From NCBI RefSeq assembly GCF_003987175.1, contig NZ_PIPM01000009.1, forward strand, positions 1-64,000: a DNA stretch of 64,000 nt. Reading direction: 5' to 3'. Numbering within the stretch: position 1 is the first letter of the stretch; every line of letters begins with the position of its first letter. The DNA is from Aliidiomarina sanyensis. GTDB lineage: Bacteria; Pseudomonadota; Gammaproteobacteria; Enterobacterales; Alteromonadaceae. This document shows positions 49,986 through 64,000 of the stretch, one piece after another. The translations under genes and the position numbers were made by a program. Under the pieces are notes generated by a model that saw only the letters and a list, made by a program, of their open reading frames with translations, was not told the DNA's origin and did no database searches.

Positions 49986-50300
49986 GGTTGTCACGCACTC
50001 CCTGAGGTTCATATGTGGCAAATCGCCCGTGTTCATGGGTCATTATACGCGAGCATTTGATCCTGAAAAGCCCCAATATTTCGGGGCCTAGCTCGGTATC
50101 CAAGGCGGTTGACTATCTATGCAAATTTGATTTGTTTTTAATCTGTCAGCATTCGATGGGTTGTGCCAAAACCATATTCCCTATATATCTGTAATAAGAG
50201 AACGTACACCGATTGGGCTTGCACTATTGTAACTGAAGGTTTATACAGGTGCCTGTTTACGCCCTCTCCATTCGCATTCAAAGAAGAGATATCGGATTTC

Positions 50301-53012
50301 ATGGCTAAATCGCTGGTTATCGTTGAGTCCCCCGCAAAAGCAAAAACGATTAATAAATACCTCGGCCCAGACTTTGTGGTGAAGTCAAGCGTCGGTCACG
50401 TGCGGGATTTGCCGACCAAAAGCATATCGAAGGCTCCGACAAAGTCTCCGGCTGAAGTTCGTAAAATGACGCCGAAACAAAAAGAAGCATATAAAAAGAA
50501 GCGCGATTATCAGAATCTGGTCGCCCGTATGGGAATCGATCCTGAGCATGGTTGGGAGCCGCATTATGAAGTGCTACCCGGTAAAGAGAAGGTGGTCAAG
50601 GAGCTTCAGTCGCTCGCTAAGAAGGCGGATCGTATTTATCTCGCGACGGATTTGGACCGCGAGGGAGAAGCAATTGCTTGGCATCTAAAGGAGCTGATTG
50701 GTGGGAGCGAGGACCAGTATCAGCGCGTCGTGTTCAATGAGATTACGAAAAAAGCGATTCAGGACGCTTTTGCCCACCCCGCCGAACTGAATGTTGAACG
50801 GGTGAATGCGCAACAAACCCGGCGATTTCTTGATCGTGTTGTCGGATTTATGTTGTCGCCTTTGCTCTGGAAGAAAATTGCACGGGGATTATCCGCAGGG
50901 CGGGTTCAAAGTGTCGCTGTACGCCTTGTCGTTGAGCGCGAGCGAGAGATACGTGCATTTGTTCCTGAAGAGTATTGGGATATTCATGCGGAGCTGCATG
51001 CGCAGCACAATGCGAACGAGGCCGCTCGGTTTGAAGTGGTGAAACATGCCGGCAAAGCATTTCGCCCCACGAACAAGACTGATGCGATGGCTGCTGTTAA
51101 CGAATTGCAGAAACTGCCTTATCAGGTCACGGAGCGAGAAGATAAACCGACCCAAAGTCGCCCATCAGCGCCTTTCATCACGTCAACCTTGCAACAGGCT
51201 GCGAGTACTCGCCTTGGATTTGGGGTGAAGAAAACAATGATGCTGGCGCAGCGTTTGTATGAAGCCGGGTATATTACATACATGCGGACTGACTCGACGC
51301 ATTTGAGTGGGGATGCGCTGAATGCCTGCCGAAGCTTGATTGAAAAAGATTTTGGGCCGGCCTACTTGCCAGAAAAACCAAACTTCTATGGAGCCAAATC
51401 AAATGCGCAAGAAGCGCACGAGGCGATCCGTCCTTCCGATGCGCGGGTTCGCTCGTCCCAATTAAGTGGGATGGAGCGGGATGCTGAACGTTTATATGAA
51501 CTTATTTGGCGACAGTTCGTTTCCTGCCAGATGACGCCAGCAAAATATGATGCAACCACACTAACAGTGACCGCGGGCGATTATCAGCTGCGGGCGCGGG
51601 GCCGTGTCTTACGTTTTGATGGCTGGACACGTGTGCAGCCGCCAATGGGCCGCAAAGGTAACGAAGATACGTCACTCCCTGATTTACAGAAAGGACAAGC
51701 CTTGGCGCTTGAGAAGCTCGACCCACAGCAGCACTTCACCAAGCCGCCCGCTCGGTACTCCGAGGCATCATTAGTAAAAGAGCTGGAAAAACGCGGAATT
51801 GGGCGTCCGTCGACCTATGCATCAATCATCTCCACGATACAGGATCGCGGTTACGTGAAAGTTGAGCAACGTCGCTTTTTTGCGGAAAAAATGGGCGAGA
51901 TCGTTACAGACCGTCTGATTGAAAATTTCCGCGACTTGATGAGTTATAACTTCACGGCCGAGATGGAACAACGGCTCGATGATATCGCCGTTGGAAAACA
52001 AGATTGGAAGAAAGCGCTTGACGCATTTTATGCAGACTTCAAGGATCAGCTGGAACGTGCAGAAAGCGAGGAAGAATCGGGCGGAATGCGCAGCAATCAA
52101 ATGGTCCTGACAGACATTGACTGTCCGGCCTGTGGTCGCAAAATGGGCGTCCGAACGGCATCCACAGGGGTATTTTTAGGGTGCGAGGGGTATAACCTAC
52201 CACCGAAGGAGCGTTGCACTCAAACGCTTAACTTGGTACCAGGAGAAGAGGCCGTTAAGCTATCTGACGATGAGGACGATGAATCAGAAGCGCTTGCGCT
52301 GCGCGCTAAAAAACGCTGTCCAAAATGCAATACCGCGATGGATAGTTACCTGATTGATGAAGAGCGCAAGTTGCATGTCTGTGGTGACAACCCCGTGTGT
52401 GATGGTCACGTCGTCGAGCATGGGAGCTTCAAAATTAAGGGCTATGATGGGCCTCTGATTGAGTGTGATCGCTGTGGAAGTGATATGCAGCTTAAATCGG
52501 GCCGTTTTGGTAAGTACTTTGGCTGTACAAACAGCGAATGTAAGAACACACGAAAGCTCCTGAAAAACGGACAGCCTGCACCACCGCGGGAAGACCCCGT
52601 GCATTTACCTGAGTTGCCGTGCGAAAAATCTGATGCTTATTTCGTCTTACGCGATGGTGCCTCAGGGGTGTTCCTATCAGCCAACACCTTCCCTAAATCG
52701 CGAGAAACGAGAGCTGTTACGGTTAAAGAACTGCAACGATTTAAAGATCGGATCCCAGAGAAGTTTCATTATCTGGCGGAAGCACCGAACGAGGACAGTC
52801 AGGGCAACGACGCAGTGGTTCGGTTTAGTCGCAAAAACAAAAATCAGTACGTTATGACTGAAGAAAATGGCAAAGCGACGGGTTGGGTTGCACACTATGA
52901 TGGTACGGCGTGGTCAATCGAGGAGGGCAGCAAGCCCAGTGCGAAAAAAACCACACGTAAAAAGTCAGTGACAAAAACCAAAAAGGCCGCAGGAAAGGCA
53001 AAATCAACTTAA
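50301..53012 (+). CDS. topA: DNA topoisomerase I
   Basis: A 903-residue type IA topoisomerase that relaxes negative supercoils. The Toprim domain starts [20 protein letters not shown] with the acidic [13 protein letters not shown]. The active-site tyrosine is in [15 protein letters not shown]. The C-terminal half carries three Cys4 zinc ribbons ([24 protein letters not shown]), then a topoisomerase C-terminal repeat and a Lys-rich tail ([20 protein letters not shown]). ATG 50301 is used; the frame runs further upstream with unrelated residues. The pilus cluster starts 60 bp after it. Confidence 0.98.
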
Positions 53013-53030
53013 CCTGCGTGCGCTGAGGAG

Positions 53031-53051
53031 AGGCGGATAGGATGTCCGCCT
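53031..53051. repeat. Inverted repeat between topA and the pilus cluster
   Basis: AGGCGGA (53031-53037) pairs perfectly with TCCGCCT (53045-53051) across 7 bases. Without a T tract it is not a standard terminator, so the pilus genes might be read through from topA. I see no convincing promoter in this 60-bp gap. Confidence 0.55.
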
Positions 53052-53072
53052 ACCTGAACACGGAGGTTTGCT

Positions 53073-53480
53073 ATGGTATCCAATCAATGGCCCGTTTGGG
53101 CCGTTATTTCATTACTTTTGTTTTATTGGTCCTCGCCTGTGGCGGGCCAATCTTACGCCCCTTGTCCGTCACTGACGTTCCATGCTCCCCACGGGACTGA
53201 GCGGACGCCAACTGCCGCGCAATCAGCTAATAATGTTTCGGTGACATTACGACCCGCATTGCTGCGCCCACAGTTAGAGGCGCTGCTAAAAACGCAGTGG
53301 GGTGTGCAGAATGTTGTGTGGTATGCGGCTCAAGAACATTATTGGCCAACCCATTATGAGATGCACGCTGCCAATGAGAATGCACTGCTTGAACAGCTCC
53401 TCACGCCCTATCGTCTGCGTGTCACCTTTCATCATAATCATACGGCGGTTGTTAATTATCTCCCAGGAGGCGCTTTGTGA
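53073..53480 (+). CDS. TcpQ/PilL-N-like periplasmic pilus protein
   Basis: A 135-residue exported protein (signal peptide to about residue 25, VAGQ). The rest, VTLRPALLRPQLEALLKTQWGVQNVVWYAAQ...LLTPYRLRVTFHHNHTAVVNY, has the helix-strand pattern of the toxin co-regulated pilus TcpQ domain. Such proteins help the secretin of type IVb pili reach or stay in the outer membrane. GGAGG lies 6 bases upstream of the ATG. The stop overlaps the secretin start by 4 bases. Assignment is by pattern and place. Confidence 0.7.
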   Translation: MVSNQWPVWAVISLLLFYWSSPVAGQSYAPCPSLTFHAPHGTERTPTAAQSANNVSVTLRPALLRPQLEALLKTQWGVQNVVWYAAQEHYWPTHYEMHAANENALLEQLLTPYRLRVTFHHNHTAVVNYLPGGAL

Positions 53481-54979
53481 TTCGATTCACCGTGTTTGGT
53501 ATCTGTATCCTATTGCTAAGTGGCTGCCTCGCAACGTCAGAATTCGATGCGATAAGCGCATCAGCAAATGAACGATTAAATAGCGCTCGTGAGCGGGCAG
53601 TCGTGCCCAGTACGCGAGATGTCCATATCATGCATGAGCAGGGATACTTTGTTCCTCCGCTCAATCATCCACAAAACAATACGCCGGGTTGGTTCAATTT
53701 ACCGGTCCAGTTCGTCTTTTCTGACTACCCCTTACGTAACGCTTTACTGGATATTACGAGCCCTATCGGCGTGAGTGTTCGGCTGCTTGACAATATTGAT
53801 CCGGAACTTCCTCTCACCATGCAACATTCGGGAACCCTCGCAGAAGCTATTGAACAGATTGCATTGACGACTGGTTTAAGTTTCACCGCGGAAGAGCGCT
53901 TGTTAACGTGGAGACAATATGAAATGGCAGAATTCGATGTCGCTTTTTTGGCTGGCGCCACGAATTTCTTTCTTGGGGGAGATGGAAGTACCATGGGTGC
54001 GCCCTCGATGCCTCAGGGTGCGCAGGGGCTTCCTTTGAATACGGGGCTTAACGATGACTCTGGGCAATACTTAAACTTTGCAAGCGACGCCCTCTCAGTA
54101 TGGGACGATCTCGCTCGCGCACTGCAATTGTTGATTTCAACGGAAGGTGAAATAGCAATCAATCAAAGCTCTACGTCTGTACTGGTGCGTGATTTGCCGC
54201 AATATGTCCAGCAAGTTCGCGAGTATCTGATGCAGCAAAATGAGCGACTCACCCGTCAAGTCGCAGTCGATGTGCAAGTCATCGATGTGACCTTCAACGA
54301 TTCAACACAGTCAGCTGTTGATTGGGACTTAATCTATCAGGCAACGGAGGCTAGTGGAGCCTTTAACCTTGGAAGTCATGTAGGCCAGCTTTCAAGGGAT
54401 GGACTTTCATTGGGGTATGAACGACTGCAAGGTCCGATGGCAGGATCGCAGCTTCTGTTACGCGCATTGTCGCAACAAGGCGTGGTTGAAATCAGTAATC
54501 ATCCCCGGCTGGTGACTCTCAATAATCAGATTTCAAAAATCATCCTTGAGGATAATGTCACCTATCTTGCATCTGCCGGAAGCTCTTCAACGGCGAATGT
54601 AGGATCAAATGACCTCCTCATTCCTGGCGTTGTCCGGACCGGTTTTGAGCTCTATCTCCTGCCTAAAGTGGCGAATGATCAAGTTCTCCTACAGCTGTCT
54701 ACCTCGTTATCTGATTTAAAAAACATCAATGAGGTGAGCTCGGGAGATACGACGATTCAAACCCCGCAAACCAGCCGAAAAAAGTTCTTTATGAAGGCAA
54801 TCGTGCAAAATCAAGAATCCTTGCTGATATCCGGCCTGCAAAATAGCCGGTCGCATTATCAATATGATCGCTCGTTGATGTCGCGCATTCTGGGTGGCTC
54901 CCGATCGCGATCAACTCAGCATACGGAAACGCTCCTCATCCTAACACCCAGAATCTTACCGTCAGGACGAATGCTATGA
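53477..54979 (+). CDS. pilN: Type IVb pilus secretin lipoprotein, PilN-like
   Basis: A 500-residue outer-membrane secretin. The lipobox LLSGC (Cys 17) makes it a lipoprotein like R64 PilN, BfpB and TcpC. The N-terminal region has an STN-like domain (LRNALLDITSPIGVSVRLLDNID). Residues 225-310 include the N1-type part with VRDLPQYVQQVREYLMQQNERLTRQVAVDVQVIDVTF. The secretin core (about 310-495) contains ISNHPRLVTLNNQISKIILEDNVTYL and SRILGGSRSRSTQHTETLLILTPRIL. It probably forms the pore for the pilus. The stop overlaps the next start by 4 bases. Confidence 0.92.
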   Translation: MIRFTVFGICILLLSGCLATSEFDAISASANERLNSARERAVVPSTRDVHIMHEQGYFVPPLNHPQNNTPGWFNLPVQFVFSDYPLRNALLDITSPIGVSVRLLDNIDPELPLTMQHSGTLAEAIEQIALTTGLSFTAEERLLTWRQYEMAEFDVAFLAGATNFFLGGDGSTMGAPSMPQGAQGLPLNTGLNDDSGQYLNFASDALSVWDDLARALQLLISTEGEIAINQSSTSVLVRDLPQYVQQVREYLMQQNERLTRQVAVDVQVIDVTFNDSTQSAVDWDLIYQATEASGAFNLGSHVGQLSRDGLSLGYERLQGPMAGSQLLLRALSQQGVVEISNHPRLVTLNNQISKIILEDNVTYLASAGSSSTANVGSNDLLIPGVVRTGFELYLLPKVANDQVLLQLSTSLSDLKNINEVSSGDTTIQTPQTSRKKFFMKAIVQNQESLLISGLQNSRSHYQYDRSLMSRILGGSRSRSTQHTETLLILTPRILPSGRML

Positions 54980-56133
54980 GTCTGGATGTCTTATGTATTA
55001 CGTTGCGCCGTTGGCAACGTTGGCAATCCTTAGCCACCATTGCGAAGCCGTATCAAGCTGAGTTTGGCCTGCGTGTTAAGTGGGGGCAGGCTCACTGTGC
55101 CTTAGTCGCACGAGAGCAGACGCCCAATTTCTGGCCGCTGATTTCGTCACGAAAACATACATTGCCGGGTATTTTGGTTGTTCCGTTTCCGGATCGCGAT
55201 CTGGTCGCGGTGATTGTGTGGACGGAGACGGGAATCGAGTTATGGCGCTGTATTCATCGTGGGGCATTGGCACCCACGTTACGGATTGTGGAGTCTTCAA
55301 TGAAACACCACATTCGATACGGGTTTTGCCCTCAAGGCTTTGAGCGTTGTGTTTTGGAAGCTTGTTTGCCCTCAACTCAGTGGGAGTCGCTTGACTTCCA
55401 GTGGGATGATCTGAACACGCTTCCGGTGCTACAGAGAACCCCAAAATTATCCGCGGCGGTGGTCGCAAGTCTCGCGTTTTTCGCGGTCGCGTGGGTTTGG
55501 CCGGAATTGTCGAATGAGGAGGCTCCGTCGACGAATCCGGCCCAGCACATCGTGGAGTTGCGGGAGAATACTCCTTCGCAGACCCGGCCCGAAGACCCGC
55601 ACGTGCGTGATGCGTTAGCGCATCACACGATCGTATTAAACGCGCTCATTGAGTTGCCGGGGTGGGCACCTGTGAACTTTCGCTGGGATAGAAAGGGAAT
55701 CCTCGTTCAAGTTCGAGCCGATACCGGCGACCTGCTGGACCTCCATGAATTCGCCATGGGGCAAGGGATTCAGATTCAACACGAAGAGGGTGGGAGAGCT
55801 TTATACTGGGCAACAGACAAACCAAGCTCTCATGTTGTGACGCCAACATTACCGTTTGCAGCACAAGGCGATTGGTTAGAGGATCTGATTCATCGTCAGT
55901 TTCCAGGATTAGCACTCCACCGCCAACGAGTCACAGAGCATTCAGGTTTGGAGCAACGAGGGCGCTTTAGACTCCGTTTTGATGACTTTTCGTTTTACGA
56001 CTTTGACCGCTTAGCCGATCTTTTAGCCGCGCATCCGGTCGTGCTTCGAGCCTTGGAGTACGAAGTAACACGACCGCACGCCTTTCCGTGGGTGGGCCGC
56101 GGGGAAATGACATTTGAGTACGTAGGAGACTAA
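54976..56133 (+). CDS. pilO: PilO-like pilus assembly protein
   Basis: A 385-residue bitopic membrane protein: a cytoplasmic N-terminal part (1-155) with low-complexity beta structure, one helix (about 157-174, LSAAVVASLAFFAVAWVW) and a periplasmic C-terminal part. The size, topology and position between the secretin and PilP genes match PilO of R64-type thin pili (BfpC/TcpD-type inner-membrane platform proteins); sequence likeness is weak. It would link the ATPase to the secretin complex. GGACGAATGCT is a modest ribosome-binding region. Confidence 0.65.
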   Translation: MSLDVLCITLRRWQRWQSLATIAKPYQAEFGLRVKWGQAHCALVAREQTPNFWPLISSRKHTLPGILVVPFPDRDLVAVIVWTETGIELWRCIHRGALAPTLRIVESSMKHHIRYGFCPQGFERCVLEACLPSTQWESLDFQWDDLNTLPVLQRTPKLSAAVVASLAFFAVAWVWPELSNEEAPSTNPAQHIVELRENTPSQTRPEDPHVRDALAHHTIVLNALIELPGWAPVNFRWDRKGILVQVRADTGDLLDLHEFAMGQGIQIQHEEGGRALYWATDKPSSHVVTPTLPFAAQGDWLEDLIHRQFPGLALHRQRVTEHSGLEQRGRFRLRFDDFSFYDFDRLADLLAAHPVVLRALEYEVTRPHAFPWVGRGEMTFEYVGD

Positions 56134-56135
56134 AC

Positions 56136-56666
56136 ATGAACAGAGCAGGGACGCTTCTGATGGTAGGTTTTGGGTTGTTTGCCCACACAGCTGTTGCACT
56201 CGACAGCGATTCTATTTTGGATGGAATGGCGTTGCGTGAAGCTGAGCGATCTCAACACCGAAATCTCGCACTTTCTCTTAGAAACCAACAGATATTGGAA
56301 AAGCAGGCTGAGTCAAAAGCGCGCCAATTGATGTTTCAGCTGCAGGCCGCGGAAGCCCTTTCGGCCATTCAAAACTTGAGTCGTCAGCAGGATTCCATCA
56401 CGCATAACTCAGATCCTTCCGTGCGCGATAGCAAGCCGGATTATCAGATTGACCTCGAGAGGATGACACTTGCTGCCCTTTTGTATTTTGGTGACGAATG
56501 GTTTGCTCGGATCCTGTATGGGAGTCGGGTATTTTTTGCCCGAGATGGAGATGTCCTTCTAAATCAAGTCAATGTGCAAGTTCGCAAGGACGGGGTAACG
56601 CTCGTACACAACGGAAGACGTCATCGATTACAAGGGGAGTCGTCATGGACACTATCGAAACCTTGA
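56136..56666 (+). CDS. pilP: PilP-like pilus biogenesis protein
   Basis: A 176-residue exported protein (signal peptide to about residue 21, VALD). After a helical linker (about 22-90) the C-terminal part, LLYFGDEWFARILYGSRVFFARDGDVLLNQVNVQVRKDGVTLVHNG, has the beta pattern of the PilP/GspC-type domain that binds the secretin. A 77-bp set of frames downstream overlaps: the ATPase gene starts 22 bases before this stop. Confidence 0.72.
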   Translation: MNRAGTLLMVGFGLFAHTAVALDSDSILDGMALREAERSQHRNLALSLRNQQILEKQAESKARQLMFQLQAAEALSAIQNLSRQQDSITHNSDPSVRDSKPDYQIDLERMTLAALLYFGDEWFARILYGSRVFFARDGDVLLNQVNVQVRKDGVTLVHNGRRHRLQGESSWTLSKP

Positions 56667-58168
56667 GTGATCTCGGTTATAGCCAAGTTCATGAGGACGC
56701 ACTGACCACCTGTCTTGAACTCTCGGCTGAAGATGACGCCTGCGCTGTTGTCGTTTTGGCTGATGGTCGAGTGCTTGCTAGTGAAACAAGCTGGCAACAG
56801 CAAATGCCCGCGTTACTCGCGTTAACATACCGGTATATCAATGCGGAACAACCATCCCCTTGGCATCGTGCCTCGGCTGATTTAATTCGTACGCTATTAA
56901 CGGACGCTGATGGGTTAAGACGTGCGCGAGAGCAATTTGTCGGTGATTCAGAAGGTTCCAGTTTGGCGCTTCAATCCTTGCATGACATGGTAAATGACGC
57001 ACTCACGCAAGGAGCGAGTGACATTCATATACGTTTGAGTGGACTCACTGCGCAGATACGCTATCGAGTCGATGGCTTGCTGATCCCACAGCTTGATCGA
57101 AGTCGCGTTTTCGTGACCGAAGTCGTTGCTGCGGCGTTACAGACGCAGTCGGATGACCATGTCGATATCTTTGATGAACGGCAAATATCCTCTGCAACCA
57201 TTAGTCTGGAGGTGGGTGTCCCGGCACAACCGATTCGACTCCGAGTTCAAAAGTCGCCGTGCCGAGACGGATTCACCGTCACACTTCGGTTACAGCGCAT
57301 TGGGCAAGGAGAGGTTCCCACATTGGCTCAAATTGGGCTGGATGAATCACATCGACAAACGATGCAACATCTCATGGCTCAACCCAGTGGAATTGTTTTT
57401 ATTTCGGGACCAACGGGGCATGGAAAAACAACCACTCTTGCTGCATTGAATGAGGCGGTACCCGCAACGCGAAAAATAATTTCCCTTGAAGACCCGATTG
57501 AGATTATTCAGCCCCGCGTTGATCAAAAACTAGTTGTTCAGCAGGCGGGTCAGCGCTTCGCGGAATTACTTAAGGTCGCCTTGCGGGAAGACCCTGACAT
57601 TGTTGAGGTCAGTGAAATTCGTGATCTGGAAACTGCGCAAGCTGCATTGAGCGCGGCACTCACGGGCCACTTGGTGTTGTCTACGATTCATGCAACGGAT
57701 GCGATTGGCATCATTGCACGACTTCATGATCTTGGGGTGCCACTGGCGCATTTGGCACAACCGGGGCTATTTGCCGGACTGATTGCTCAACGTTTGCTCC
57801 CGAAACTATGCAGTGAATGTCGCCGTGTCGATAGCGAGGGAGCTCGACAGGGTGTCTATCGAAGAAATGCCAAAGGGTGTTCAGCTTGCCATTATGCTGG
57901 TGTGAAGGGGCGTGTCTTGGTCTGTGAGGTGATCGTGCCTGGTGATGAGGGAGGCGCATTTATCCGCACAATGGATACTCAGGAATGGCGCCAATCAATG
58001 ACAAAGCGTGGATTCCGGAGTTTGGCACAAGATGCCTACACACTCGTACGACAGGGAACGGTTGACTGGCATGATGCAAGTGAGTTGGTTCCGGGCCTAA
58101 GTCAGCTCCTATTGAATGACCTGCATGGGGGTGCTCAGAATGAGCGTATCTCTGAAACGACAAGTTAA
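56645..58168 (+). CDS. pilQ: Type IVb pilus assembly ATPase, PilQ/GspE-like
   Basis: A 507-residue motor ATPase of the secretion/type IV pilus superfamily. The N1-like part holds SDIHIRLSGLTAQIRYRVDG. Walker A is GPTGHGKTT (K261). The Asp box and Walker B region read LREDPDIVEVSEIRDLETAQ; the usual G of VGEIRD is S here. The His box HLVLSTIHATDA and a tetracysteine (C389, C392, C412, C415) complete it. Start ATG 56645 is preceded by GGGGAG and lies inside pilP. It would power assembly from the cytoplasmic face. Named PilQ after plasmid R64, not the secretin PilQ. Confidence 0.93.
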   Translation: MDTIETLSDLGYSQVHEDALTTCLELSAEDDACAVVVLADGRVLASETSWQQQMPALLALTYRYINAEQPSPWHRASADLIRTLLTDADGLRRAREQFVGDSEGSSLALQSLHDMVNDALTQGASDIHIRLSGLTAQIRYRVDGLLIPQLDRSRVFVTEVVAAALQTQSDDHVDIFDERQISSATISLEVGVPAQPIRLRVQKSPCRDGFTVTLRLQRIGQGEVPTLAQIGLDESHRQTMQHLMAQPSGIVFISGPTGHGKTTTLAALNEAVPATRKIISLEDPIEIIQPRVDQKLVVQQAGQRFAELLKVALREDPDIVEVSEIRDLETAQAALSAALTGHLVLSTIHATDAIGIIARLHDLGVPLAHLAQPGLFAGLIAQRLLPKLCSECRRVDSEGARQGVYRRNAKGCSACHYAGVKGRVLVCEVIVPGDEGGAFIRTMDTQEWRQSMTKRGFRSLAQDAYTLVRQGTVDWHDASELVPGLSQLLLNDLHGGAQNERISETTS

Positions 58169-59168
58169 TTTCGTTACGGGGCTGCATGAATGGTTGGGAT
58201 CCGGTTCTGGCATTGAAAAATCAATGTTAGGGTTCGAGATGGCTCTGAAAGAACATGGGAGTCGACGGGAGCTCTTGTGGCTTGAGCGTATCAAACGAAC
58301 GGTTCAGCGGGGTCAGCCGATCGCAAAGGGTATGGAGGCCGATTTCTCACCACAACTCGTGATGGTGATGCGGTTGGGGCAGAAATATGGCTGCTTGGGG
58401 CCTATCCTGAGCGCGTTCAATGCACAAAATCAGCGGGAACGAGCAGGACTGGTGTTGTGGATGAAGAAAATGAGCTATCCGCTGCTGTTATGTCTCGTAT
58501 CGTGCATCGCACTCATCTTTATTGGCACACAGGTGCTTCCACGTTTTGCGGATCAAGGGGTCTTCGACGATGCGCATCAAATGACTGTAACCGCCCAGAT
58601 TGTGCATCGACTCGCGGAGTTTTTGTTGATCGGCCTTCCCTTGATTGTTGGGGTTGGCATCCTGATTGCGATTGGGCTACGTTGGCTGTTACCTACAGTG
58701 GCAGCCCCGTGGCGACGCCATCTCGAATCGCTTTATATATTTCGCGTCTATCGGCGTACGCAACTGATATCGTTCTTGCGTACGAGTTCAATTTTGCTGC
58801 ATCACAACGTTTCATTCGCAGCAATTCTTCAAGAACTAAAGGCGTTATCGACTCCATATCTTCGCCACTATTTAACGATTTTTTTGGCGCGTGTTCGGCG
58901 TGGAGAGTTTGAGGTGGCACAGCTACTGCGCAGTCCTTTAGTAGATAAAACCATCTTGTTTCGACTGCAGTGTCAGAACCCAAAGCTGCCACTTAATGAA
59001 CGTTTGGATACGTTAGCGGTTTATGTTGAAGGGGATCTCGATCGACTGTTAGTACGTGCTCAACACCTCATTGCGGCGGCGTGTTTCTTTCTCGCAGGTT
59101 GCTTCATGATTCTGCTATTTCTAGCCCTTGCCACTATGATGCGGCTTTTAGCACAAGGGGCGATGTAA
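58140..59168 (+). CDS. pilR: Pilus inner-membrane platform protein, PilR/GspF-like
   Basis: A 342-residue GspF-family membrane protein. Two T2SSF domains, each with a helical cytoplasmic part, flank the membrane helices at about 105-130, 165-195 and 310-338. Conserved pieces are LVMVMRLGQKYGCLGPILSAF and QLISFLRTSSILLHHNVSFAAILQEL. The start at 58140 has GGGGG 8 bases ahead and overlaps the ATPase gene by 29 bases. It anchors the growing pilus. It corresponds to R64 PilR. Confidence 0.88.
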   Translation: MSVSLKRQVNFVTGLHEWLGSGSGIEKSMLGFEMALKEHGSRRELLWLERIKRTVQRGQPIAKGMEADFSPQLVMVMRLGQKYGCLGPILSAFNAQNQRERAGLVLWMKKMSYPLLLCLVSCIALIFIGTQVLPRFADQGVFDDAHQMTVTAQIVHRLAEFLLIGLPLIVGVGILIAIGLRWLLPTVAAPWRRHLESLYIFRVYRRTQLISFLRTSSILLHHNVSFAAILQELKALSTPYLRHYLTIFLARVRRGEFEVAQLLRSPLVDKTILFRLQCQNPKLPLNERLDTLAVYVEGDLDRLLVRAQHLIAAACFFLAGCFMILLFLALATMMRLLAQGAM

Positions 59169-59241
59169 AATTCTTAATTCTACACCAGTGTCTTGACTTG
59201 CAATGAATGCGAGTCAACTAACGATGACAAGGAGTCACATC

Positions 59242-59760
59242 ATGCAATTATCACATACATTTCTGACAAGTCCTCGGGGGATGGGGCGCTTCGGCTCAGC
59301 ACGGCGTCTCGTATCGCGGAATCGCAGGATGGGAGGTTTCACCTTTATCGAGGTCCTCGCAGTTCTCAGTATTGTTGCACTTGCAACCTTGGGGGTACTT
59401 GCCTTGCGCGATTGGGCAACCAGTAATGCACGAATTTCTGAGGCGAAATCGCAAGTGGCAGCAATTCAGTCCGGTGTTCAGCAATGGCGACCTCGGAATG
59501 GGGTCTACACGGGTGTCTCGGTCGATGCATTAACACAAGTTGCATCGCTTCCCATCTCATGGGGTGATGGTTCTTCCATTAACCCCTGGGGTGGGGATAT
59601 CCAGATAAGTGTGGACTCCACCGATGCGACTCGCTATATCGTTCGCTTGACCAATATTCGCGTGAGCGAAGAGGGACAGCGACTTAGTCGTGACTTTTCG
59701 TCTATCGCTGAGTCGGTGAGCTTCTCTGGAAATACATTTGAAGCAACGTTTCAAGGCTGA
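59242..59760 (+). CDS. pilS: Type IVb major prepilin, PilS-like
   Basis: A 172-residue prepilin with an unusually long leader (32 residues) containing many Arg. The cleavage motif is RRMGG/FTFIEVLA: peptidase would cut after G32, leaving Phe at position +1 and the Glu at +5 (E37). The long leader is typical of type IVb prepilins. The mature part has a hydrophobic helix up to about residue 50 and then PRNGVYTGVSVD. AGGAG is 7 bases ahead of ATG 59242. There are no cysteines, hence no disulfide-bonded D region, unlike TcpA or BfpA. Confidence 0.85.
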   Translation: MQLSHTFLTSPRGMGRFGSARRLVSRNRRMGGFTFIEVLAVLSIVALATLGVLALRDWATSNARISEAKSQVAAIQSGVQQWRPRNGVYTGVSVDALTQVASLPISWGDGSSINPWGGDIQISVDSTDATRYIVRLTNIRVSEEGQRLSRDFSSIAESVSFSGNTFEATFQG

Positions 59761-59765
59761 AGCAA

Positions 59766-59999
59766 ATGCGTGGTTATACCCTGCTGGAGCTCATCTTAGT
59801 ACTCGCATTGCTCAGTAGCAGTGCGATGGTTATTTCGGTCTGGCCACGCAATGCAGATTCACCGGATTCGCGTGCTCATGATGAAACGATCGTGAGACCT
59901 GCATGTTGGTTGTCAGTTCGTGACATGCAACGTGCTGAACAAGAGCGCATATTGTTCGCTGCGCAACAGAATGCCTACAGGGAGTTTTCATGTGACTAG
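59766..59999 (+). CDS. Mini-prepilin (77 residues)
   Basis: A very small prepilin-like product: MRG/YTLLELILVLAL, with the Glu at +5 of the mature form (E8). Only 74 residues would remain after cleavage, too short for a normal pilin headgroup. Two Cys (in RPACWLS and EFSCD) could form a disulfide. It may be a pseudopilin that starts pilus assembly, or an outgrown fragment. It starts 5 bp after the prepilin stop and ends inside the next gene. Confidence 0.72.
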   Translation: MRGYTLLELILVLALLSSSAMVISVWPRNADSPDSRAHDETIVRPACWLSVRDMQRAEQERILFAAQQNAYREFSCD

Positions 60000-61191
60000 G
60001 ACAGTGTTCGCCAGGAGGAAAATTCCTCATCCATTTTCATTGAGGGTTAAACGAAATGCGGGTTTTACGCTGCTTGAATTTGTTATAGCTGCAGGCTTGG
60101 TGGCTACGATGTTATTGAGCTTCGCTCACCTGCAGCGGGTTCAACGCATGGAAAGCACGCTCTCGACCGTTGCACTCGAGGTGGCCGGAATAAAGGAGGT
60201 GGTGCATTATTTTCTGATGCATAATCCACTGCCTGCTGAGGGAATTGATTTGGCAATGTTGATGGACCAGGGGCTGTATCTTGGGCCTCTGTTAAATCCG
60301 TGGGATCGACCCTATGTTTTTATATCCGATCGCTTTGGCCTACAACTATCCACGGAAGTCCCTCAAGCGCATCGCGCTCAGCAACTTGCAAACCGGCTTT
60401 CGAACGCCGGTGTTGAGGGGGAGCGTGTATTCACCCGAATTCCCGTTCCCGTGCAAGCGCAAGACGCAACAAATGCGCTCCATCGAGTGGCAATTCCTGG
60501 TCAGCCCGAACTCAATCAGATGGCCACTCATATTGATATGCAAGGTCATGCAATTACAGCGATCAACTCACTTGATGCGCAGAGTATGAGCGTGGACCAG
60601 TTATGGGCTGAAGTCGCGTATGGAGAAACTCTGTATGTTGATGGACTGGAGGCTGAATCGATTCAGACTGAAACATTGTCTACAACGTTGCTCTTCAGTG
60701 AGGAGGGTGTATTCGATACACTTTTTGCGGATGATGCACACTTCGCCCATCTGGCTGTCCATGATTTTCTAGGGCCATTACATGAGGTGTCAGTGGGAAC
60801 ATTGTTGGGAGACGTCTTGTCTGCCGACCTGCTCGATGTCCATGCACTCTCGGTTTCCGGTCAGTTACATGGAGAAAAGGCGCAGTTTTTCGAAATCGTG
60901 GCAGACCACTGGACAGCGCTTGATGCTTATATTGATTCTGTGTATGTGAACTCTGCTCAGTTTGAGTCCATTGAAACCCAATCCTTGACTGCTGACTCTG
61001 CATCGTTTGATGTGCTGTATGCGAGCGAGGCCCATGTGTCGGGCACCTTGGTTTCACAGGAGATTATAGCCAATTTGGTGTATGCAGCCGATGTCGTTAC
61101 GCCCTACGGGAGTCTTGGAGATGCACTCCAACGATTGAATGACTTTGAATCGTTATGGACAGCCTGTGTTCAATCTGGCGGATGTCAGTAA
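59992..61191 (+). CDS. pilV: PilV-like minor prepilin with repetitive C-terminal domain
   Basis: A 399-residue prepilin using a GTG start: GGGAG lies 8 bases ahead of GTG 59992, which overlaps the previous stop, and an upstream ATG would lie deep in the mini-prepilin gene. Cleavage motif NAG/FTLLEF (after G24, Glu at +5). After the hydrophobic helix, residues 60-190 form a head domain. The C-terminal ~200 residues repeat short hydrophobic-alternating units such as VDGLEAESIQTETLS, VSVGTLLGDVLSADLLDVH and SAQFESIETQSLTADSASF, suggestive of a beta-helix or stacked strands. In R64, PilV is the tip adhesin; that role is inferred here. Confidence 0.8.
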   Translation: MTRTVFARRKIPHPFSLRVKRNAGFTLLEFVIAAGLVATMLLSFAHLQRVQRMESTLSTVALEVAGIKEVVHYFLMHNPLPAEGIDLAMLMDQGLYLGPLLNPWDRPYVFISDRFGLQLSTEVPQAHRAQQLANRLSNAGVEGERVFTRIPVPVQAQDATNALHRVAIPGQPELNQMATHIDMQGHAITAINSLDAQSMSVDQLWAEVAYGETLYVDGLEAESIQTETLSTTLLFSEEGVFDTLFADDAHFAHLAVHDFLGPLHEVSVGTLLGDVLSADLLDVHALSVSGQLHGEKAQFFEIVADHWTALDAYIDSVYVNSAQFESIETQSLTADSASFDVLYASEAHVSGTLVSQEIIANLVYAADVVTPYGSLGDALQRLNDFESLWTACVQSGGCQ

Positions 61192-61192
61192 A

Positions 61193-61741
61193 ATGCCCGA
61201 GCCAACTCGAAGCAAAACACGGGGGCAGGCTTTTGTCGAAACCTTGGTTGTCTTGTTCACCATCTCAATTTTGCTGTCTGCTGCGGTGCAGCTTCTGTGG
61301 ATATTTGCACTGCAACAGCTCGTACAAGCTGCCGCAATTTATGCCGCCAAAGATGGTGCACGGAGCTCACTTGATCCGATGCGGATCTCAGAAACCTACG
61401 TGGATCGATTGCAGCGCATTCCGGGAATTGAACCGTACATGTTTAGTTTTGAGGTACTGCAACCCCTTACTGAACATCGGCCAATGACGGCTGGATTTGA
61501 TCGCCCTCGAATGGCCGAATTAGATTCTAATCGCCAAGAGAAGTACCTGCGGAGTCGCATACTGACCCTTGAGTTTACTCATTGCTTAGACCTAAAAACG
61601 CCACTCGTTCGTGACTTACTCTCATTGATACAGCGAAAGCAAACGCCATTGGCAAGCTGTCAACACGTCCCGTGGTTTTCTCACCCCTTCTTCATTCAGG
61701 TGCGTGCCACAGTGCCACTTGAGACAGCTCTGCCGCCATAG
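61193..61741 (+). CDS. TadE-like pseudopilin
   Basis: A 182-residue protein with TGQAFVET-like start RGQAFVETLVVLFTISILLSAAVQLL, the TadE-type transmembrane segment in which the Glu lies near the N-terminal end of the helix. Such TadE/TadF proteins are minor pseudopilins of the Tad (Flp) pilus. Here it ends a type IVb (R64-like) cluster, and the ATG is one base after the preceding stop. It also has two Cys in the C-terminal part (THCLDL and ASCQHV). The mixture of families is unusual. Confidence 0.78.
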   Translation: MPEPTRSKTRGQAFVETLVVLFTISILLSAAVQLLWIFALQQLVQAAAIYAAKDGARSSLDPMRISETYVDRLQRIPGIEPYMFSFEVLQPLTEHRPMTAGFDRPRMAELDSNRQEKYLRSRILTLEFTHCLDLKTPLVRDLLSLIQRKQTPLASCQHVPWFSHPFFIQVRATVPLETALPP

Positions 61742-61818
61742 GTTGGACAAACAGTTTCAAGCTACCTTTGGAGACATATCCCAGTGGTCACGAGCTAGGG
61801 GACCTTCGGTGCGAGACA

Positions 61819-62709
61819 TCAGAAAAGCGGTGGTGCATCGAATGGATCATGAAACTGATTACATGCCTGCAAAGTATTGGCCATCAAGCAAGCAACCGTC
61901 ATGGGGCCGACACCACCCGGTACCGGCGTGATCCATGAGGCCCGTTGCTGTGCAGGAGCGAACTCTACGTCTCCGCACAGGGAACCGTCGCTACGACGGT
62001 TAATGCCCACATCAATCACAATTGCGCCAGGCTTCACCCAATCGCCCGGAATAAATGACGGCTTGCCCACCGCCACCACGAGGACATCCGCGGCGCGGAC
62101 GTGGGCTTCTAGATTCTTTGTGAAACGGTGGCACACGGTGGTTGTAGCCCCGGCGAGTAGTAACTCTAGACTCATGGGCCGGCCGACAATATTCGAAGCA
62201 CCAACGACCACTGCATGCATGCCATGTAAGTCCACCCCGGTGCTTTCGAGGAGGTGAATTACACCATACGGAGTGCAAGGACGGAGCAAAGGAATTCGTT
62301 GTGATAAGCGGCCAATATTGTAGGGGTGAAAACCATCGACATCTTTTTTGGGATCGATCCGCTCAAGAATGCGCGTTGCATCGAGGCCTGCGGGGAGGGG
62401 TAACTGTACTAAGATACCATCGGTTTCTGGATCGTCGTTCAAGGAGTCTATCAAGGCTTCTAAAGATGCTTGGGATGCGGTGACCGGCAAGTCATAATCT
62501 TTGGAGATAAAACCGACCTCCTCACACGCACGGCGTTTACTGCCAACATAGACTTGTGATGCAGCGTCCTGTCCGACGAGCACCACAGCGAGACCAGGCG
62601 GACGACGGCCGTGGTCAAGACGCGCTTTGACACCTGCTTTCACTCGGTCGCGGATGCCTTGGGCTATTTTTTTGCCATCAATCAGTTGAGCGGCGTTCGG
62701 GGAGGTCAT
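61819..62709 (-). CDS. folD: Bifunctional methylenetetrahydrofolate dehydrogenase/cyclohydrolase
   Basis: A 296-residue enzyme that interconverts 5,10-methylene-, methenyl- and 10-formyl-tetrahydrofolate. The motifs are [14 protein letters not shown] (catalytic Lys), [35 protein letters not shown] and [15 protein letters not shown]. It is convergent with the pilus cluster, 77 bp separate the stops, and no terminator hairpin is evident in the gap. The N terminus [17 protein letters not shown] fits the family. Confidence 0.98.
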
Positions 62710-62869
62710 GGTCTCGTTCCGGAATCGTAGGGTGGCTGACTGGGTCCATATTGTCGCAGAAAATAGCGCCGCAGGACAACGGAATGAGCGAACTTTGCGC
62801 GGAAAAAGGACTCTTTTTCTTGTCTTTGTCTTAAAAATAGGCAGACGGTCATGTATTCTGAAAAATTGT

Positions 62870-62905
62870 TTGACGATGACCAGTCAGATAGGTAATATTC
62901 GCCCC
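62870..62905 (+). promoter_or_regulatory. Stable-RNA promoter of the tRNA cluster
   Basis: TTGACG (62870-62875), a 17-bp spacer and TAATAT (62893-62898), followed by the GC-rich discriminator TCGCCCCC just before the expected start. This is the pattern of rRNA/tRNA promoters under stringent (ppGpp/DksA) control. Confidence 0.85.
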
Positions 62906-62944
62906 CGTTGTCGCCCTGACATGAAATGTCGTGGCAACAGCTGT

Positions 62945-63021
62945 CGGCGAGTAGCGCAGCTTGGTAGCGCACTTGGTTTGGGTCCAAGGGGTCGCTGGTT
63001 CGAATCCAGTCTCGCCGACCA
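62945..63021 (+). tRNA. tRNA-Pro (UGG), copy 1
   Basis: A 77-base cloverleaf with anticodon TGG in the loop TTTGGGT, closely similar to the E. coli proline tRNA with UGG, and an encoded CCA. It is the first gene behind the promoter. An identical copy lies at 63286. Confidence 0.97.
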
Positions 63022-63054
63022 TTTTTTTCCCAGCGTCACCGCAGGAAGAACAGC

Positions 63055-63131
63055 GCGCCCGTAGCTCAGTTGGATAGAGCAGCGGCCTTCTAAGCCGTCG
63101 GTCGCAGGTTCGAATCCTGCCGGGCGTGCCA
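63055..63131 (+). tRNA. tRNA-Arg (UCU)
   Basis: A 77-base cloverleaf with anticodon loop CTTCTAA (UCU), acceptor stem GCGCCCG/CGGGCGT and encoded CCA. It reads AGA and AGG codons. Confidence 0.96.
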
Positions 63132-63183
63132 GGCTTGCAGGTATCTGGATTAATCAGACGCGGTTAGCGCAAGCTCAGTCAGT

Positions 63184-63260
63184 GGTGGGTGTAGCTCAGT
63201 TGGTAGAGCCCCGGATTGTGATTCCGGTTGTCGTGGGTTCGAGTCCCATCATCCACCCCA
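63184..63260 (+). tRNA. tRNA-His (GUG)
   Basis: A 77-base cloverleaf including the extra G at -1 that histidine tRNAs require; anticodon loop TTGTGAT (GUG) and encoded CCA. Confidence 0.97.
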
Positions 63261-63285
63261 TCTTTTAAATCCCTCTGTATGTCGG

Positions 63286-63362
63286 CGGCGAGTAGCGCAG
63301 CTTGGTAGCGCACTTGGTTTGGGTCCAAGGGGTCGCTGGTTCGAATCCAGTCTCGCCGACCA
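63286..63362 (+). tRNA. tRNA-Pro (UGG), copy 2
   Basis: Identical over 77 bases to copy 1, with different flanking sequence. Together with the first it encloses the Arg and His genes. No terminator hairpin is visible behind it. Confidence 0.97.
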
Positions 63363-63456
63363 TTTCTTTGTTTTTCAAGTGATACGGTAAAAATCGCATC
63401 CCTCGTCAGTACTCCCTATGATAAGCTCATATCGTCATTAGCAGATTGAGTATTCC

Positions 63457-64000
63457 ATGGTAGAACAACATTTATTACTTCGTGCGCGCGAGTTGTCCGA
63501 TCGATTAGTTCAGTTGCAAGCGCCGATCCGAATTCTCGATGCCATTAATTGGGACCGAGGGACTCGAGAGCAATTCTTTGCCAACAAAGCACAGAAAAAC
63601 CCGGCAATTGATCGTGACTTTTACCAACGCAAAGCACTCGGTTTTGATCCGGCGTCATTACGACACGAGCTCGCTGAACTTCAACGTGATATTACCCGCC
63701 AATTGGGTCGCTTAAGCCCCATCGCGCAATTAATGAGTCGCGCCTGTCGTGAATATCGCGATGTGGTGCGAATGCTTGAAGCGCGAGGTACGTCAGAGTT
63801 TCATGAGCTGTCCGTTGAATTATTTGGTCATCCCGATGATGTGTTTCACGCCAATGAGCCCTCACTCGTTGAGCTTGCGCATATGTTGCAAAGCCCGCTT
63901 GATTCTTTGCTGGCGAGCGATGCTTTGCCGGAAGAGAGTAAAAATATCGACGCCGCTGAAGCAGTATCACGTTTGCAATCCCAACTGAAAGAGAGCATGC
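63457..64000 (+). CDS. DUF1704 (QEGLA-motif) family protein, 5' part
   Basis: An open frame running off the window, 181 residues visible, starting MVEQHLLLRAREL. The features RILDAINWDRG, DFYQRKALGFDP, LSPIAQLMSRACREYRDVVRMLEARGTSEFHELSVELFGHPDDVF match the start of DUF1704 proteins (KIAA0895-like putative metallopeptidases, once noted as flavohaemoglobin-modulating). The catalytic HExxH-like and QEGLA motifs would lie beyond the end. The ATG has only a weak GAG upstream; TATGAT (63417-63422) may be a -10 box. Confidence 0.8.
   Translation, partial: MVEQHLLLRARELSDRLVQLQAPIRILDAINWDRGTREQFFANKAQKNPAIDRDFYQRKALGFDPASLRHELAELQRDITRQLGRLSPIAQLMSRACREYRDVVRMLEARGTSEFHELSVELFGHPDDVFHANEPSLVELAHMLQSPLDSLLASDALPEESKNIDAAEAVSRLQSQLKESM

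Follow-up and report, generated by a model that had tools for sequence, protein, structure and literature searches.

The window analysed here is a stretch of 64,000 nucleotides from Aliidiomarina sanyensis (contig NZ_PIPM01000009.1, positions 1 to 64,000). Positions 53073-61741 hold ten open frames on one strand, mostly overlapping, with topA 60 bases before them and folD 77 bases after them on the opposite strand. From their sequences, the ten genes are predicted to be a chromosomal type IVb pilus block that is related to the thin-pilus cluster of plasmid R64 yet distinct from it, and that is standard for its family. The block appears to have been stripped down twice, leaving either tadE or tcpQ-pilN-tadE intact. 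A sequence-only reading of the window had described a compact chromosomal cluster with hybrid parts behind topA. The chromosomal site was confirmed, and the same site was found across 62 genomes. The compact form with hybrid parts is also real, but it is the form of the whole family and no oddity of this genome.

Distribution, apparent reduction and probable exchange of the locus

We scored the frames between topA and folD in all sampled genomes of Aliidiomarina, Pseudidiomarina and Idiomarina (62, the window included), using profiles derived from Aliidiomarina. The TadE-like gene was found at this site in 62 out of 62 genomes. The full machine (pilQ, pilR, pilS, and pilV) was present in 47, only tcpQ-pilN-tadE (hereafter the trio) in five (G005, G008, G010, G011, and G012, all Aliidiomarina), and only tadE in ten, all of them Idiomarina. 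The recognised genes had identical order and strand in all 62 genomes, which rules out chance. Both flanks were available in 60 genomes, as topA was absent in G330 and folD in G012, both at contig ends; topA was thus recognised adjoining the block in 61. Of the 47 full loci, 34 had a recognisable pilO and 38 a recognisable pilP. In the 15 full loci where pilO or pilP was unmatched, the gap between pilN and pilQ was 1360-1640 bases, which leaves space for both. A genome-wide search for the ATPase was positive in 12 of the 17 Aliidiomarina (about 4e-194 or better) and negative in the five trio genomes, in which the best other match (7.7e-82) was a type II/IV paralogue. The pilus ATPase was not found in the four tadE-only genomes searched.

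A survey of marine gammaproteobacteria for the block behind topA had been proposed, and the survey found the same fixed site in Aliidiomarina, Pseudidiomarina, and Idiomarina. When GTDB contigs were scanned with the secretin alignment, 30 loci were obtained, which came from these three genera and one gammaproteobacterial metagenome-assembled genome, and topA and folD flanked the block in all loci of sufficient length. The secretin was detected in 17/17 Aliidiomarina, the window's own genome included, at an expectation value (E) of 1e-144 or better in a single-sequence search, and in 26/26 Pseudidiomarina and 9/19 Idiomarina at E 1e-60 or better. A family-wide sample had a secretin match in 41 of 295 genomes and 8 of 52 genera. 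Six matches from other genera had no topA, folD, or TadE in the stretch examined, and some of these stretches end at contig ends. Of the 7996 candidates scored in a protein search, 105 were relatives at E 1e-40 or better. One genome titled Idiomarina loihiensis SN11 (G323, L085) groups with Pseudidiomarina by genus code and tree, and it is probably misnamed.

In a tree of 60 genomes based on topA+folD, the trio genomes formed one group (support 99). The tadE-only genomes also formed one group (support 99), which was nested in the full-block Idiomarina. Two state changes suffice on this tree. Counts of state changes alone cannot separate gain from loss; two losses are the simplest reading, since the tadE-only group is nested in full-block Idiomarina and the full block occurs in all three genera. 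In the secretin tree, the three genera grouped together, apart from nine outside sequences (support 99), and several branches were weak or long.

The remnants show purifying selection in the close pairs examined. Omega of tadE was 0.04-0.14 in 6/6 tadE-only pairs, and in the single close trio pair it was 0.15 for tcpQ, 0.09 for pilN, and 0.08 for tadE. In two further trio pairs, synonymous sites were saturated for the three genes, except for tadE of G008/G012 (0.32). All 15 reduced genomes have long open frames (that of G012 continues past the contig end). In tadE-only genomes, topA and tadE are 69-111 bases apart. The distance from the end of tadE to folD is -20 to +8 bases in the 14 reduced genomes where the two genes are available. 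Secretins are regarded as dedicated to a single machine. Here, two natural deletion series at one locus may have removed the filament, motor, and platform, with the secretin module or one minor pilin kept under selection, and the locus makes the interchangeability of pilus parts between machines directly testable.

To examine gene histories, we compared five species triplets by third-position distances. In two of them (G253/G331/G168 and G337/G239/G334), topA paired with one partner in 100% of resamplings, and tcpQ, pilN, pilQ, pilR, pilS, pilV, and tadE, together with folD, paired with the other partner (100%). Two of the remaining triplets agreed throughout and one gave mostly no resolution. 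Because the history of topA disagrees with that of folD and the pilus genes in two of five triplets, the locus probably recombines between species, and the pilus genes would seem to move as one block. Thirteen pairs were profiled for identity. There was a clear fall inside the block relative to topA and folD in G253/G331, G108/G206, G337/G334, and G110/G239, a dip in G013/G016, and a weak one in G168/G253, and no notable dip was seen in G337/G239, G298/G140, and five pairs of reduced genomes. Compared with its congeners, the window was least alike in PilV, PilO, PilR, and TadE and most alike in PilS and PilN; the window TadE-like protein was 21-42% identical to its counterparts. Exchange at a fixed site is expected for a surface structure pressed to vary.

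Genes of the block and related pilus systems

The R64-type system was represented by Escherichia coli plasmid pN83 (annotated IncI1, R64-type) and not by R64 itself. An R64-like gene order had been proposed for the block and was supported. PilN, PilQ, PilR, PilS, and PilV were identified by profiles, while PilO, PilP, and 'TcpQ' are positional only. PilN (53477..54979, + strand), the outer-membrane secretin, matched PF00263 (E 1e-15), and its best NCBIfam match was TIGR02520 (PilN) at 212 bits, below the cut-off of 288. Its alignment profile had BfpB as the best solved match (E 6.5e-47) and aligned with the annotated IncI1 PilN at an hhalign probability of 99.9. Reading the sequence also suggests a lipoprotein-type start. 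PilQ (56645..58168, +), the assembly ATPase, matched T2SSE (E 1e-84) and aligned with IncI1 PilQ over 420 columns (probability 100). Its P-loop is intact and the other alignment-invariant columns are kept. PilR (58116..59168, +), the inner-membrane platform protein, was assigned by Pfam T2SSF (E 2e-9).

The major pilin PilS (59203..59760, +; the true start is possibly further in) matched PF08805 at 24.4 bits, against a cut-off of 22, as well as N_methyl, and the Bundlin cut-off was likewise exceeded. It was 63-76% identical in nine congeners with a long PilV. The next gene (59766..59999, +) encodes a small minor pilin of 77 residues, with TIGR02532 above cut-off. PilV (59971..61191, +; start uncertain within a frame opening at 59920) is of pilin type. 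It had a weak Shufflon_N match, below cut-off, and aligned with IncI1 PilV, an adhesin with a conserved neck, over 52 columns (probability 96, 29% identity). Its length varied from 134 to 427 residues among full loci. The predicted structure has a confident pilin head and a short C-terminal helix, and the stalk is modelled as a beta-solenoid of low confidence (predicted local distance difference test, pLDDT, about 37-73). The stalk shares a solenoid shape with the tapirin C-terminal domain (6n2b) and a related adhesin domain (4wa0), and no kinship is claimed.

The last gene (61139..61741, +; a shorter start at 61193 is likely) encodes the TadE-like minor pilin. The window protein itself had no match to Pfam TadE (PF07811). 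Its assignment as TadE-like was nevertheless borne out through relatives, as 26 of 30 alignment members matched PF07811 at E up to 0.1 (best 2.5e-8), and 16 of the 30 carry a precomputed PF07811 annotation. The TadE-like proteins have a type III prepilin signal, with the prepilin glutamate in 62/62 and glycine in 59/62, and each of two cysteines is kept in 62/62. The predicted structure was confident and found no match among solved structures.

The first gene (53073..53480, +) encodes a small protein, a probable secretin partner, with homologues in 52 of the 62 genomes and in plasmids. It had been called TcpQ-like. It is the counterpart of a plasmid gene by position only, and Pfam TcpQ, a family of the toxin-coregulated pilus, was matched by none of 23 alignment members at E up to 0.1. 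The probability was 0.5% against IncI1 PilL and 1% against IncI1 PilM. The frames named pilO (54976..56133, +) and pilP (56136..56666, +) gave 9.9% and 5% probability against IncI1 PilO and PilP, and the Pfam matches of 17 PilO and 14 PilP members included no pilus family. PilO evolves fast: its identity to the nearest congeners is 27-28%, against 71% for PilN.

The R64 genes pilT (transglycosylase), pilU (prepilin peptidase), and rci (recombinase) had been said to lack counterparts, and within the block this was so. None of the ten proteins matched a lytic transglycosylase or a recombinase (the rest of the genome was not searched for either), and no shufflon-type inverted repeats were found in 59700-61900. 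The block yielded no PilU-type prepilin peptidase. Peptidase_A24 matched only once in the genome, on contig C43, in an operon of a pilin, a 350-residue PilB-like ATPase, PilC, and PilD. The same genome also has a type II secretion cluster, and its Tad cluster includes a secretin.

Three plasmid clusters (Glaciecola pGLAAG01, Alteromonas pASTE61-200, and Shewanella pPN3F2_2) have the same order of a tcpQ-like gene, pilN, O, P, Q, R, pilin(s), and a PilV-like gene, with O and P assigned by position only in pPN3F2_2. In these three, PilN was 28-31% identical to the window PilN, and the best plasmid PilN matches came mostly from Alteromonadales and Aeromonas (27-31% identity). The three clusters differ from the block in having extra upstream genes (in pPN3F2_2 these encode a lytic transglycosylase as well as an ATPase of secretion type), far larger PilV-like proteins, and no TadE-like match. 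Descent from a plasmid-type cluster is likely, although deep branches in the secretin tree are long. The IncI1 thin pilus shares the order N-O-P-Q-R-S-V and homologous PilN, PilQ, and PilV. Unlike it, the block is chromosomal, lacks rci with its shufflon and a prepilin peptidase, begins with a gene that gave no match to PilL or PilM, and has an additional small pilin and a TadE-like pilin. Likeness to the bundle-forming pilus was seen in the BfpB match of the secretin and the Bundlin match of PilS. The TadE family match is shared with the Tad/Flp tip pilins TadE/F/G, but the TadE-like gene lies outside the Tad locus, 61 of the 62 genomes carry a separate TadA, and the Tad loci examined have their own secretin.

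The block had also been put forward as an undescribed system. Public records already label some orthologues as 'R64 PilN family', 'BfpB', or 'TadE/TadG family', and plasmid relatives exist, but we found no study of this ten-gene block in the open-licence literature. What is added here to the sequence-only reading is the fixed site, the conflicting gene histories, and the two reductions.

On the 5' flank, topA occupies 50163..53012 (+) as an open frame whose true start is possibly further in. On the 3' flank, folD is an open frame at 61819..62709 (-). In G001, two small frames lie between tadE and folD (L053:12523-13256, oriented as in the window), and they resemble what we take to be an antitoxin-toxin pair.

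The proposed pilus and the fate of the remnants

Our preferred reading, which we hold to be probable but well short of secure, is that the ten genes build a type IVb-class pilus whose PilV tip grips surfaces or other cells, and that the remnants are likely to be reused by another filament machine. Pilus assembly and adhesion would thus be the predicted functions. PilD, encoded elsewhere in the genome, would cut PilS and the minor pilins (the 77-residue pilin, PilV, and the TadE-like protein), and the ATPase PilQ and the platform PilR would polymerise them. The filament would exit via the PilN secretin with its small 'TcpQ-like' partner, with PilV at the tip. In the tadE-only Idiomarina, some other machine (type II secretion, MSHA-type, or type IVa) would use the TadE-like protein as a minor pilin.

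A more tentative idea, possible but doubtful in our estimate, is that in Aliidiomarina TcpQ-PilN and the TadE-like pilin replace the type IVa secretin, also named PilQ, as the outer-membrane exit of a type IVa-like pilin-PilB-PilC-PilD machine. If so, the gate swap would let the five trio species drop the rest of the type IVb machine while keeping exactly tcpQ-pilN-tadE, and Idiomarina, which still have type IVa PilQ, could drop tcpQ-pilN too. In a search of 28 of the 62 genomes with TIGR02515, type IVa PilQ was over cut-off in none of the 17 Aliidiomarina (G000-G016), compared with 11 out of 11 Pseudidiomarina and Idiomarina. The pilin-PilB-PilC-PilD operon, in which PilB is short, was kept in all seven Aliidiomarina examined (G000, G005, G008, G009, G010, G011, and G012), including all five trio genomes. 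G000 also keeps a gene that is presumably PilT-like. For loci outside the block, the labels GspD/GspE, RcpA, TadA/B/C/D, PilT, MSHA, and PilB/C/D are partly our own assumptions from sequence and operon order. The trio genome G005 had three secretin matches, one beside a GspE-like ATPase, one beside TadA, and one at PilN. Since Aliidiomarina has an inner-membrane machine for which no PilQ was found, and the trio PilN has no inner-membrane machine of its own, we infer that the two may be paired. As a side observation, G000, G005, G010, and G011 are without a second secretin match and an ATPase of ~600 residues that are present in the other 13 Aliidiomarina, and thus an MSHA-type pilus may be lost in these four genomes.

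Several points weigh against the pilus and its reuse as proposed. PilO and PilP are unproven as such, their names coming from position alone. In G014, which has the full block, the ATPase has a premature in-frame stop near its C-terminus (L046:8141-9664; G014:C1:236326-237828). As folD sides with the pilus genes, the recombination breakpoint is placed on the topA side only, and either side may have moved. The TIGR02515 cut-off also misses divergent secretins: of 14 control genomes, 7 gave a match and only one was over cut-off. The gate idea has one loss event per clade as its base, and the remnant secretin could serve a type II or Tad machine, or something else. Furthermore, the tadE-only genome G336 has lost the Tad locus and has a broken type IVa-like operon but an intact tadE, which differs from that of G299 at only 4 of 240 residues. 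Hence neither of the two loci is a strict requirement, unless both were lost very recently. In this single-contig Idiomarina genome, eight frames, none related to the frames of G299, stand in place of the Tad locus (L149, G336:C1:1606000-1625900). A group of large frames splits its type IVa-like operon (L160:108-6309), in which PilB lacks its start and no pilin was found.

The TadE-like gene might not belong to the pilus at all. It could be an older resident of the topA-folD site with its own job, the pilus cluster having entered between topA and tadE in the ancestor of the family. We give this a minority chance, though a serious one. The three plasmid clusters run from tcpQ to pilV with no TadE by profile, the matches from other genera had no TadE within the stretches available, and tadE persists in every genome while the rest was apparently lost twice. 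On the other hand, tadE follows pilV (pilN in the trio) closely or overlapping, as in an operon, and in two of five triplets it sides with the pilus genes rather than with topA. In the outgroups G022 and G120, neither topA nor TadE lies beside folD, and thus a residency of tadE before the cluster was not seen. That the remnants are decaying leftovers, kept only as tadE abuts the 3' end of folD, we regard as very unlikely. The close spacing to folD and the fast evolution of TadE fit decay, but the open frames, the invariant glutamate and cysteines, and omega far below 1 do not, and an overlap at the 3' end gives no protection to the start of a gene.

It is also unlikely that the TadE-like protein serves as a pilin at the tip of the Tad pilus, which is encoded at another locus. 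TadA is nearly always present (in two pieces in one genome), TadE, F, and G homologues make up the tip of a Tad pilus according to PMC12075869, and only two tip-like pilins were noticed in the Tad loci examined. However, G336 lost its Tad locus, possibly recently, and kept tadE, and only the signal region aligned between the TadE-like profile and those of Tad-locus TadE (probability 5.7). A role of the pilus in DNA transfer, either R64-like conjugation or DNA uptake, seems a little less probable still. One of the three plasmid relatives is typed MPF_I, another lies beside a conjugative-transfer gene, and the locus itself shows recombination between species. Yet the block is chromosomal at a fixed site, and no relaxase or transfer gene was noticed on reading 50000-64000, where no profile was run on the flanks. 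Moreover, all 11 Pseudidiomarina and Idiomarina searched have type IVa PilQ, the usual gate of DNA uptake.

With regard to Tad loci, a long PilV-like protein was not found in those of G008, G207, and G299. The Tad loci of G000 (L056:5231-6982, - strand) and G013 (L148:13329-15053) end in a PilV-like protein of 583 and 574 residues, respectively, and the 583-residue protein aligned with the window PilV at an hhalign probability of 96. Therefore, the Tad cluster of these genomes seems to have acquired a tip protein of type IVb style.

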